Translations under genes and position numbers: made by a program
Shown here: piece after piece, positions 11,138-42,815 of the stretch
Numbering within the stretch: the first letter of the stretch is position 1
Layout of the letters: each line of letters starts with the position of its first letter
Notes under the pieces: model-generated
Told to the model about the DNA's origin: nothing
The model's database searches: none
The model's input: only the letters and a program-made list of their open reading frames with translations
Assembly: GCA_021847795.1 (NCBI GenBank)
Contig: JAJZPZ010000009.1
Location: forward strand, 1 to 47,752
DNA: 47,752 nt
Source of the DNA: Nitrospirota bacterium
GTDB taxonomy: Bacteria; Nitrospirota; Thermodesulfovibrionia; Thermodesulfovibrionales; Dissulfurispiraceae
Direction of reading: 5' to 3'

Positions 11138-11253
11138 AAGACAGTGACTCTAAAGACAGTAACAAGTTAATAGTAACAAGTAACGAGTTAAAGACTAACG
11201 ACTCCAAAAACTCGTCACTCGTTACTCGTTACTGATAAGGTTAGTCGTTACTG
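11138..11253. repeat. A-type heptad hairpin repeat (A1)
   Basis: AGTAACA/AGTAACG/AGTTAAA/GACTAAC units followed by ACTCGTCACTCGTTACTCGTTACTG. Confidence 0.75.
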
Positions 11254-14107: not shown

Positions 14108-14260
14108 GCACGAAGCAAACGACAAATCCGAAATCCGAATATCTAAATCCTAAACAATATCTAAATTCAAAATGCTCCAAACACTTTGTCGATGTGGCGC
14201 CGGGCTGCATGCGTGCATTTGTGGAAACTGAGCTGAAGGCACGAATGCAAGCCCGGCACT
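14103..14260. repeat. B-type heptad repeat arm (B1) plus GCCGGGC(T)TGCA hairpin
   Basis: CCTAAGCACGAA...AAATCCGAAATCCGAATATCTAAATCCTAAAC, then GCCGGGCTGCA 14199-14209 pairing with TGCAAGCCCGGC 14246-14257. Confidence 0.65.
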
Positions 14261-18833: not shown

Positions 18834-18960
18834 GCCTGGCTTGCAGATGTGCAAATGCATAAATGCAAGCCAGGCACTTTGAATGCTGACACGTTTTGGA
18901 TTTGGGTCATTGGGATTTCGGATTTGTTTGGAATTTGGTGCTTGGGATTTGGCGCTTGCT
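18834..18960. repeat. Hairpin GCCTGGCTTGCA...TGCAAGCCAGGC plus B-type heptad repeat (B2)
   Basis: Perfect 12-bp stem (18834-18845 with 18864-18875); then TTTTGGATTTGGGTCATTGGGATTTCGGATTTGTTTGGAATTTGG. Confidence 0.7.
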
Positions 18961-30984: not shown

Positions 30985-31107
30985 TTAAACAAATCCGAAA
31001 TCCTAATATCTGAATCCTGAACAAATTCAAATGACCGAAAATCAAAACGTTTTGAACGTTTGAGTTTGTAATTTCGATATTGTTCGGGATTTAGTATTTC
31101 GGATTTA
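30985..31107. repeat. B-type heptad hairpin repeat (B3)
   Basis: AAATCCGAAATCCTAATATCTGAATCCTG...ATCAAAACGTTTTGAACG...ATTTCGGATTTAGAATTT; psd stop codon lies inside. Confidence 0.75.
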
Positions 31108-31749
31108 GAATTTCTCCTTGTTTATTCTCCCCAGGATGGTTTCTCCTGCCTTTACCTTGTCGCCTAATTTTACCTTAATTTCCGTTTTGGGTGGGAGAAA
31201 AATGTCGAGCCGCGAACTGAACTTTATCATGCCGTAGCGCTCCCCTTTTTTCAGGGAATCTCCGGGTCTTACCCTGCAGACTGCGCGCCGGGCAATGGCC
31301 CCGGCCACCTGCCGCACCAGCACTTTATAAAAAGCGCCCTTCAGGAGCATGGCGATGTTCTCATTCATCAGTGACGCCTCGGGTTTGAAGGCGGAAAGGA
31401 ACTTCCCGGGCGTATGGACTACGGCTTCTACTGTCCCGTCGCAGGGGGCCCTGTTGACATGGACGTTCAGGGGCGACATGAAAATGCTGATCTCAACGGC
31501 ATTGCCCTGCAGATATTTCTCCTCAAGGACCTGCTGTATCTGGATGACCCGGCCGTCTGCAGGAGACACGAAGATATCGTCCTCTGCAGGAGTCGCTCTT
31601 TCCGGGTCCCTGAAAAAATAGAACATGAAGAGGAGCAGGATGAAAGGGACAACTGCAGGCGCTGCAGATCCGATAAAGTAAGCGACTGCAGTGAGCGCCG
31701 CAAAAAAAACGATGAAGGGATACCCTTCGGGTGCAAATTTCATTTTCAT
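31105..31749 (-). CDS. psd: Phosphatidylserine decarboxylase proenzyme (short type)
   Basis: FFRDPER, VSPADGRV, MSPLNVHVNRAP, GMIKFSSRLD (GSS-type cleavage region reads FSS). Confidence 0.92.
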   Translation of the reverse strand: MKMKFAPEGYPFIVFFAALTAVAYFIGSAAPAVVPFILLLFMFYFFRDPERATPAEDDIFVSPADGRVIQIQQVLEEKYLQGNAVEISIFMSPLNVHVNRAPCDGTVEAVVHTPGKFLSAFKPEASLMNENIAMLLKGAFYKVLVRQVAGAIARRAVCRVRPGDSLKKGERYGMIKFSSRLDIFLPPKTEIKVKLGDKVKAGETILGRINKEKF

Positions 31750-31761
31750 AAATTATATACC

Positions 31762-31937
31762 ATCAGTGACAAGTAACCTCTTTAGTAACGAGTAACATCA
31801 ACAACAGTAACGAGTAACAAGTAAAGGATCTGAAGACAGTGACAAGTGACGAGTCTGAAGGCAGTGACGAGTTTTTAGAGTCTTTAGTCTTTAACTTGTT
31901 ACTTGTTACTTGTGACTGTCTTTAGAGTTACTGTTGT
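31762..31937. repeat. A-type heptad hairpin repeat (A2)
   Basis: CAGTGACAAGTAACCTCTTTAGTAACGAGTAAC...GTTACTTGTTACTTGTGACTGTC; reverse complement near-identical to A3. Confidence 0.82.
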
Positions 31938-32957
<1,020 letters not shown>

Positions 32958-33044
32958 TTACCTCCTGCATTTTTAACTTTCCCAAAGGGTTAATCCTACT
33001 ATATTACATGTTTTCCAAAATATTTTCTCCCTGAGAGCGCTGGG

Positions 33045-33118
33045 GACAGTCCCCATTCTACGACTTCGCTGCGCTTCGTCCGTGCTTAAGGCACCTACGG
33101 TTGGTAAATTGGGACAGT
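33045..33118. repeat. GGGGACAGTCCCC palindrome pair (REP-like)
   Basis: CTGGGGACAGTCCCCA and TTGGGACAGTCCCTT. Confidence 0.55.
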
Positions 33119-33142
33119 CCCTTCAGGGATAGGGATTATGAA

Positions 33143-33308
33143 CAGGGCTGGCAGGTGTGACGAAGGGCCGTTCAGAGCGATACCTTGTGCCGAACCCTCC
33201 CGCCGTATAAAGGCAATTTCAGCACCACCTGTCCACGAGACAGAAAAACAGGCACTATGGTGATTTTATCGCATTATGAACGGCCCTTCGTCACACCTGC
33301 CATCCCTG
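33143..33308. other. Long-stem element E1 (candidate structured RNA/DNA element)
   Basis: 32-bp arms, 31/32 complementary (33143-33174 with 33277-33308); core GCGATACCTT...TTTTATCGCATT shared with E2. Confidence 0.8.
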
Positions 33309-33367
33309 CCTACGAATGATGTGCTGTCGCATTGTCAATTTTTCGCGCGAGGCTATACAATGATGTG

Positions 33368-36494: not shown

Positions 36495-36665
36495 AAGGCA
36501 GTAACAAGTAACTCTAAAGACAGTGACAAGTCACAAGTAACAAGTAACAAGTTAAAGACTAAAGACTCTAAAAACTCGTCACTGCCTTCAGACTCGTCAC
36601 TTGTCACTGTCTTCGGATCCTTTACTTGTTACTTGTCACTAAAGAGGTTACTTGTTACTGCCTTC
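36495..36665. repeat. A-type heptad hairpin repeat (A3)
   Basis: GCAGTAACAAGTAACTCTAAAGACAGTGACAAG...CTTGTCACTGTCTTCGGATCCTTTACTTGTTACTTGTCACTAAAGAGGTTACTTGTTACTGCC. Confidence 0.82.
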
Positions 36666-37353: not shown

Positions 37354-37460
37354 TGTCGTCCTCCTTCCTGCATTAGGCTGGAGCTATTGCCTGTCGCCTA
37401 TAGCTAATCCTATCCGATTCCCCTTCGGAAATCAACCACTCCCGCATACTTTAACTTACA

Positions 37461-37659
37461 GTTGCATAAAGCTCCTCAAAGCGGAAGGGGAGGGATGAAC
37501 CAAAAGCTTTACGGCGATACCTTTGAAGATTTTCATACCACCCCACCGAAATCATAAGCCGGAAGGCACTTCACGTGAACCTGTGCAATTCCCGATGAAT
37601 ACGGTTTTTTATCGCATTGTAAAGGTTTTGGGGCATTCCTCCCCTTCCGGTTATGCAAC
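37461..37659. other. Long-stem element E2 (candidate structured RNA/DNA element)
   Basis: GTTGCATAA/TTATGCAAC outer pair; CGGAAGGGGAGGGATGAACCAAAAGCTTTAC (37482-37512) pairs with GTAAAGGTTTTGGGGCATTCCTCCCCTTCCG (37619-37649); core GCGATACCTT...TTTTTATCGCATT. Confidence 0.78.
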
Positions 37660-37762
37660 GTTAAGGTTTACTCTTGATAAAAAGTTCACCTTTAGCTATC
37701 ATTTAAAGTAAAAAAACCGGCTGCCTGCCTTGAGGTCCCCGGGATTCGGACTGGAGGGTGCC

Positions 37763-40045: not shown

Positions 40046-40215
40046 GCAAATCCGAAATCCTAATTTCTAAATCCTAAACAAATCCCAATGACCAAAGTCC
40101 AAAACGGTTTTGAGCATTTGGATTTAGTATTTAGATATTGTTTGGAATTTCGTGCTTGGGATTTGGAGTTTGCCGTTTGTTCGGGATTTGGAAATTAGTG
40201 CTTCGGATTTGTCTT
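40046..40215. repeat. B-type heptad hairpin repeat (B4)
   Basis: AAATCCTAAACAAATCCCAATGACCAAAGTCCAAAACGGTTTTGAGCATTTGGATTTAGTATTTAGATATTGTTTGG; near-identical to reverse complement of B6. Confidence 0.82.
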
Positions 40216-40232
40216 TCAGCGGGAGGCAGAGC

Positions 40233-41901: not shown

Positions 41902-42669
41902 ATGCAGCCGGTCATCGGCATTGCCTGCGACATGGACGACGAAGTGTTCAGGCTCAGGCGGAATTATGTTTCTGCAATAACTGATGCAGGCGGAATCCCG
42001 TTGGTGATCCCCCCTTCGGCAAAGGATTGCAATATAACCCGGATAGCGGATATTATCAGCGGACTCCTCCTGCCCGGAGGCGGAGACCTGCCCCCGGAGT
42101 ATTATGGAGAGGAGCTTTCCGTGCCCCGGGAGTGCCTGATATCTGTAAGGAAAGAGAGGATTGAATGGGAACTCGCGCTGCTGAAAGAGGCAATGAAAAG
42201 GGAGCTGCCTGTTCTGGGCATATGCCTCGGCATGCAGCTCATCAATGTTGCGCTCGGAGGAGACCTTTACCAGGACATCAACCTTCAGGTCCCCGGAGCC
42301 GGTGACCACAAAAAAGGCGCTCATGCAATAAAAGTCAGCCGGGCTTTTCTTTCAACCTTCAGTCTTCAACCTTCAGCCTTTGCCGTCAATTCCTACCACC
42401 ACCAGGCGGTAAAGACCCTTGCCGGGGGCCTGGAAGCGGATGCGGTTTCTGAAGACGGAATAACCGAGGGGTTTATCAAAAGGGATTATCCCTTTCTCGC
42501 AGGGGTACAATGGCACCCTGAGCGGCCCCTCTGTAAACAGACCTCTCCGGGAGCACAGGAAGAGGCATCGCGACTTTTGTTAAACTCCCGGAGTTGTGAT
42601 AAACTTTCAGTAAAGATATTCGCGACCTTCATCGAAAAGGCGAGGATAGGGAGAAATTCTAAATCCTAA
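41902..42669 (+). CDS. Gamma-glutamyl-gamma-aminobutyrate hydrolase-like class I amidotransferase (Peptidase_C26, PuuD-like)
   Basis: LLPGGGDLPPEYYGEE, PVLGICLGMQLINVALGG, VNSYHHQAVK, GVQWHPE. Confidence 0.9.
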   Translation: MQPVIGIACDMDDEVFRLRRNYVSAITDAGGIPLVIPPSAKDCNITRIADIISGLLLPGGGDLPPEYYGEELSVPRECLISVRKERIEWELALLKEAMKRELPVLGICLGMQLINVALGGDLYQDINLQVPGAGDHKKGAHAIKVSRAFLSTFSLQPSAFAVNSYHHQAVKTLAGGLEADAVSEDGITEGFIKRDYPFLAGVQWHPERPLCKQTSPGAQEEASRLLLNSRSCDKLSVKIFATFIEKARIGRNSKS

Positions 42670-42797
42670 GCACGAAACTCCAAACAATATCAAAATACTA
42701 AATCCAAATGCGCAAAACCGTTTTGGACTTTGGTCATTGGGATTTGTTTAGGATTTAGATATTCGGATTTCGTGCTTGTTATTTATTTGGGATTTGA
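42651..42797. repeat. B-type heptad hairpin repeat (B6)
   Basis: GAGAAATTCTAAATCCTAAGCACGAAAC...CAAAACCGTTTTGGACTTTGGTCATTGGGATTTGTTTAGGATTTAGATATTCGG. Confidence 0.82.
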
Positions 42798-42815
42798 AGC
42801 TTTCCGCTGGAGCTC

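Follow-up and report, generated by a model that had tools for sequence, protein, structure and literature searches.

Chromosomal repeats of the bcr1 type in Bacillus cereus look mobile, have a conserved RNA fold and are accompanied by a short target duplication. The bacterial MITEs ERIC, Correia/NEMIS, RUP and RPE are 100–200 bp long, with inverted termini, target duplications and transcripts predicted to form long stem-loops, and YPAL/RU-2 of Yersinia is a 168 bp element with internal inverted repeats, no TA termini and target duplications that vary from 3 to 26 bp (PMC2229807). The long stem-loops of bacterial MITEs have long been noted, and whether the fold does anything was previously left unclear. 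The family of the locus described here, E1, comprises dozens of diverged copies distributed over many genomes and thereby gives a strong comparative signal that the fold of one strand, together with a conserved mismatch in it, has apparently been selected across a phylum. The question of the fold thereby becomes directly testable, and the family points to an unknown enzyme mobilising hairpin elements in the poorly studied Nitrospirota.

E1 lies in a stretch of Nitrospirota DNA of 47,752 nucleotides, hereafter called the window. The bcr1-type repeats, as generally described, differ from the E1 family in phylum and in sequence. Like ERIC, Correia/NEMIS, RUP and RPE, the E1 family is non-coding and dispersed in intergenic DNA, with inverted termini and target duplications; unlike them, it has an unrelated sequence, termini of the form CC...GG rather than TA, a phylum-wide scaffold with varying arms, and a measured strand-specific covariation. 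YPAL/RU-2, likened here by its description, shares the internal inverted repeats, the lack of TA termini and the target duplications, which in the E1 family are 5–6 bp instead of varying widely. REP/BIME sequences with RAYT (Y1) transposases (for REP families, PMC3733652) are also palindromic extragenic repeats with strand-specific hairpins, whereas the E1 family is far longer (~210 nt), carries target duplications and occurs in genomes where Y1 was not found. An integron attC site is not supported, as GTTRRRY/RYYYAAC boxes at the stem base were not seen on direct reading of the aligned arms.

An earlier note, made from the letters of the window, had described a long near-perfect stem at 33143–33308 with an inner helix, an asymmetric internal loop, small interior hairpins and no ORF, and all of these are borne out. 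The stem corresponds to inverted repeat I13, with arms of 32 nt, and E1 folds at −91.7 kcal/mol compared to −49.0 ± 4.2 for shuffled sequences (z −10.2). The GCGAT/ATCGC helix and the asymmetry of the loop are present in the sequence, as are interior hairpins at 33202–33204/33212–33214 and 33229–33233/33239–33243, CTGTC(CACGA)GACAG among them, and no ORF of at least 90 aa overlaps E1. Inner helix 2 is paired in 99% of cells in 71 aligned copies and persists phylum-wide, while core helix 3 corresponds to pair columns 56–58/122–124 and shows double changes from C-G to G-C. At the position of a tandem G.A mismatch conserved in the family, the GA of E1 lies opposite TC (33288–33289) and is Watson-Crick paired. 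The parts of the element are listed in Table 1.

Table 1. Parts of E1 and related elements, with window positions or locus handles.
Feature	Position	Strand	Remarks
E1 whole element	33129..33322	+	left end approximate, truncated; consensus and model matches
E1 left arm, long stem	33143..33174	+	I13, 97% complementary; helix 1, covarying consensus
GA side, conserved tandem G.A mismatch position	33162..33163	+	alignment columns 27–28/164–165
GCGAT, inner helix 2, 5' strand	33177..33181	+	partner ATCGC 33268–33272, then 3'-side bulge
Core, family A type	33182..33267	+	E1 fold; sequence conserved across copies
GTGCC, core helix 3, 5' strand	33187..33191	+	partner GGCAC 33251–33255
ATCGC, inner helix 2, 3' strand	33268..33272	+	covarying consensus; persists across phylum
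E1 right arm, long stem	33277..33308	+	I13 partner; helix 1, covarying consensus
E1 right terminus, decayed	33309..33322	+	CCTACGAATGATGT, aligned to consensus ..TACGGATTATGG
E2, second member, ~213 nt	37454..37666	+	other core and end type ACTTACAGTTGCATAA...TTATGCAACGTTAAGG
Family B loci	L167, L180, L181, L187, L190, L191, L216, L228, L282, L283		
Third core type, contigs	C206, C127, C17, C230, C269, C120, C48		loci L389, L391, L392, L394, L396–L399

The extent of 166 bp first assigned to E1 proved too short, the element being ~210 nt long, as seen in E2 and on the right side of E1. A 210-nt consensus matches E1 at 33135–33321 (query 20–209); the left terminus is lost beside a GGGACAGTCCC repeat and the right end, reaching ~33322, is decayed. 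E1 is an older, decayed copy, and no target-site duplication is recognisable at E1 itself. The GGGACAGTCCC palindrome occurs twice at 33040–33130, bracketing ~90 bp immediately to the left of E1. It looks like a separate repeat family, and its two copies appear to have replaced or interrupted the left terminus.

The second member in the window, E2, was recovered with a covariance model built on copies of the E1 type, a check that had been suggested beforehand, at 37482–37649 (55.7 bits, E 1.5e-10), and its own fold (37479–37652) has a z of −5.1. The two were initially taken to have unrelated arms around a constant core. This holds for GCGATACCTT...TTATCGCAT, common to both; the interior sequence, by contrast, differs, and a diverged arm scaffold is common as well. 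In the same genome, contig C94 holds a second copy that agrees with E2 at 209 of 213 positions (98%) and lies in unrelated flanks; the C94 copy has a 7-bp duplication, TTGTTTA, on both sides, and at E2 itself the flanks match over only 4 nt (TTTA).

Comparison of copies shows that the family is mobile and that its insertion duplicates 5–6 bp of the target. Intact relatives have the termini CCATAATCC...GGATTATGG with terminal inverted repeats CCATAATCCG/CGGATTATGG, of which E1 lacks the left end. Among pairs of exact ends, abutting duplications of 6 nt were found in 18/98 (0/300 in shuffled pairings) and of 5 nt in 13/98 (1/300); in a first scan, 18 of 60 copies had shown a direct repeat of 6 nt or more in their flanks (control 6%). 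Mean identity of copies is 0.80 within a genome and 0.71 between genomes; copies within one genome are up to 95–97% identical, while most of their flanks are at chance identity. The E1 family, whose copies have defined ends and lie in flanks that are unrelated, is therefore MITE-like: small, non-coding and dispersed, with terminal inverted repeats and target-site duplication. The view that E1 is not a simple duplicated repeat accordingly finds no support, since it belongs to a mobile dispersed repeat with intragenomic copies; nor is E1 an RNA gene present in a single copy. A match to a known MITE had been named as grounds against a structured element; it applies in part, the family being MITE-like, and the covariation survives it. 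Palindromes of 39–51 nt consisting of the ends only (CCATAATCCGTAA...TTACGGATTATGG, without arms or core) were seen at L199, L210, L286 and L287 and are probably internal deletions of the element.

In its own genome (3.54 Mb) the family has about 15 strong copies and a few dozen weaker ones. E1 as a BLAST query gave 19 matches, with ~16 further homologous places at 75–84% identity in both orientations; the 210-nt consensus gave 29 matches, and the covariance model R1 gave 54, some of them both strands of one locus. Carriers are patchily distributed among relatives (12 of 60 genomes, this one included). At E ≤ 0.001, 43 of the 296 Nitrospirota genomes sampled match R1; they belong to many families and often have several copies. 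When one genome per species was scanned for the exact core pattern (85,462 species), all matches were in MAGs of Nitrospirota/Thermodesulfovibrionales, apart from a single MAG whose title reads just 'uncultured bacterium'. A viral origin was rejected, the core pattern having no match in IMG/VR viral contigs. If one mismatch is tolerated, the 14-mer ATTACGGATTATGG is found 71 times in genome G003 and 33 times in G005 (controls 1–2). Many contigs of the G003 assembly start or end inside the element (L065, L082, L084, L085 and L086), which suggests very many near-identical copies there. Rfam has no match at gathering score in the window, the best score at E1, 10.1 bits, lying below threshold, and nothing relevant on Nitrospirae MITEs was found in the open-licence literature. 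The E1 family is thus apparently an uncatalogued gene-free mobile element of about 210 bases, spread through many Nitrospirota genomes, and the initial description as an undescribed structured element stands, with no Rfam match and with compensatory change.

Distant matches (L342–L361) have unrelated arms and cores and the same order of features, as read by eye without a separate score. This order runs from the arm through a GA..GA mismatch beside AAAA/TTTT, an inner arm and a 3' bulge of 2–3 nt to GCGAU/AUCGC or an equivalent, ACC and a variable core. A constant core within varying arms, as at first proposed, is hence only partly right phylum-wide: the shape of arm and GCGAU is constant, and both arm sequence and core vary. 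The same termini enclose several cores (families A and B), and the same scaffold has several end types, namely CCATAATCC, CCTTACAGTTGCATAA (as in E2), CCGGATTATTCATAA and CCTAAATTGCCGATA. Core family B (~210 nt, motif CGTCATCTACTACATTGCTCAC or CGTCATCCGCATCGGCGG) has the termini of E1 and a similar arm layout, and its consensus fold has an energy of 0, computed from only 10 divergent sequences. A third core type, with arms of the GGCAGTGGGGCAG type, occurs in this genome and sometimes adjoins a family A copy (C230:12185–12562 and C48:1850–2233).

The covariation first suspected from two elements is evident in the alignment of 71 copies, both as compensatory changes and as a signature, specific to one strand, of folding as a single strand. 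Of the 34 pairs in the consensus, 27 have changed on both sides. Standard pairs fill 96.5% of cells, compared to 84.6% when the 3' letters are shuffled and 36–41% when partners are slid, and the covariation score of 0.389 falls to 0.164 on shuffling and to 0.05–0.07 on sliding, with controls that are uncorrected for shared ancestry. The cells are also strongly skewed between the strands, with G.U or U.G in 158 and A.C or C.A in 8 (~20:1), counts that overstate independent events as the copies share ancestry. By column, 27 of 28 informative columns lean one way and 1 the opposite; by copy, 60 of 71 have more G.U and 3 have more A.C. The skew is weaker in distant sets (32 vs 14) and in family B (19 vs 13, with poor arm alignment). 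Because transitions at unpaired columns are balanced (271 pyrimidine, 267 purine), the excess of G.U is not a mutational strand bias. Since G.U far exceeds A.C and the skew is absent at unpaired positions, these comparisons indicate that selection acts on a single strand in its folded form, either RNA or ssDNA, and not on the duplex.

We therefore read E1 as an old, decayed copy of a non-autonomous, MITE-like element of ~210 bp, mobilised in trans, of which one folded strand has been kept by evolution (probability about 0.75). A transposase supplied in trans would cut the element at its ends, and that transposase or a host factor may bind the folded single strand, which could be needed for the spread or the tolerance of the element. 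The weakest step is the nature of the selected strand, for which an RNA transcript is somewhat favoured over ssDNA, since ssDNA transposition by Y1 occurs without target duplication and the element has one. RNA is not proven, for ssDNA too tolerates a G.T wobble.

An unlikely alternative to the folded-strand reading is a plain DNA-transposon MITE, whose arms are ordinary terminal inverted repeats maintained by duplex recognition by the transposase and by palindrome-templated correction, the fold being irrelevant. It would account for the termini and target duplications, and also for the mismatch site in this genome, where GA/GA has become GA/TC or TC/GA as a unit (10 of 13 copies, E1 included), resembling templated copying from the other arm. 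However, neither recognition of the duplex nor extrusion of a cruciform nor repair of the palindrome would tell the strands apart, and the G.U excess on one strand is unexpected from duplex recognition or cruciforms. The tandem G.A mismatch, which ordinary maintenance of an inverted repeat would remove, is kept in 57 of 71 copies and in 54 of the 58 from relatives, and the compensatory C-G to G-C change in the 3-bp core helix also speaks against this alternative.

Most copies are no more than about 100 nt away from a gene. They lie between divergent (29), codirectional (37) or convergent (10) genes, the codirectional genes being antisense (23) or sense (14) to the element; all these figures are based on longest-ORF gene calls. 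The excess of divergent spacers may be an effect of spacer length. Because both orientations and all gene arrangements are represented, a role as cis-regulatory leader for particular genes was excluded. A conserved cellular non-coding RNA family, in which every copy works as a gene or a regulatory leader and amplification took some unrelated route, would be in keeping with the strong covariation and with some copies at orthologous sites in two genera (for example L064 and L072, 98% identical with flanks at 85%). We consider it highly improbable given the mixed gene arrangements and orientations, the target duplications and a patchy distribution in which, for example, no copy was found in G001, the only further species sampled in the genus to which this genome belongs.

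The partner enzyme was sought among five families in the carriers, and neither an autonomous copy nor a partner transposase was found. ISL3 (PF01610) was not found in most carriers, DDE_Tnp_1 (PF01609) and rve (PF00665) are absent from at least some, Y1 (PF01797) was not found in G003 and G022, draft genomes in which loss or gaps are possible, and RVT_1 (PF00078) was not found in G010, G013, G017, G022 and G027. Because each is missing from some carriers, none of the five is so far a universal partner, barring loss or assembly gaps. Putative autonomous copies at L075, L077 and L195 were discarded, as their outward-facing ends, some kb apart, enclose ordinary genes. At L192:1285–1514 a fragment of an ISL3-type transposase lies ~20 nt inside a lone element terminus; ISL3 was rejected as partner, the fragment having an in-frame stop and most carriers having yielded no ISL3.

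These searches bear on two further explanations. Transposition of ssDNA by an HUH (Y1) enzyme, with the family as a REP/BIME or IS200/IS605-type element and a RAYT-like enzyme reading one folded DNA strand, fits the strand-specific folding, the mismatches conserved in the hairpin and the frequency of Y1 genes, which are common in this bacterial family and number 13 in this genome. Y1 transposition leaves no target duplication, whereas the element has one, and the two carriers in which Y1 was not found also speak against this explanation, which we regard as highly improbable. Least probable is a retro-mobilised RNA inserted by target-primed reverse transcription, which would combine a single-strand fold with target duplications and fit the few copies whose truncated ends adjoin flanking repeats of more than 6 nt (for example 13 nt at L092), but which is opposed by the five carriers in which RVT_1 was not found and by symmetric inverted termini, typical of DNA transposition.

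A bolder extension of the trans-mobilised, folded-strand reading would make the family a phylum-wide RNA-dependent transposon: without a protein gene of its own, mobilised in trans, with a folded RNA, fixed in scaffold and free to change in sequence, as an obligate component of the transposition machinery and with exchangeable cores and termini. We offer it tentatively and regard it as doubtful.

The window contains other repeats as well. Low-complexity repeats of the TTTGGATTTGGGATTTCGG type are dispersed between genes (14116–14186, 18874–18959, 30990–31117, 40047–40219 and 42650–42804), some forming long inverted pairs (I1, 119 nt, 93%). A second type, GTAACAAGTAACAAGT / GTGACGAGT, is found at 31764–31934, 36507–36660 and 11141–11253, and includes an inverted pair of 112 nt (97%) whose members are 4.6 kb apart.
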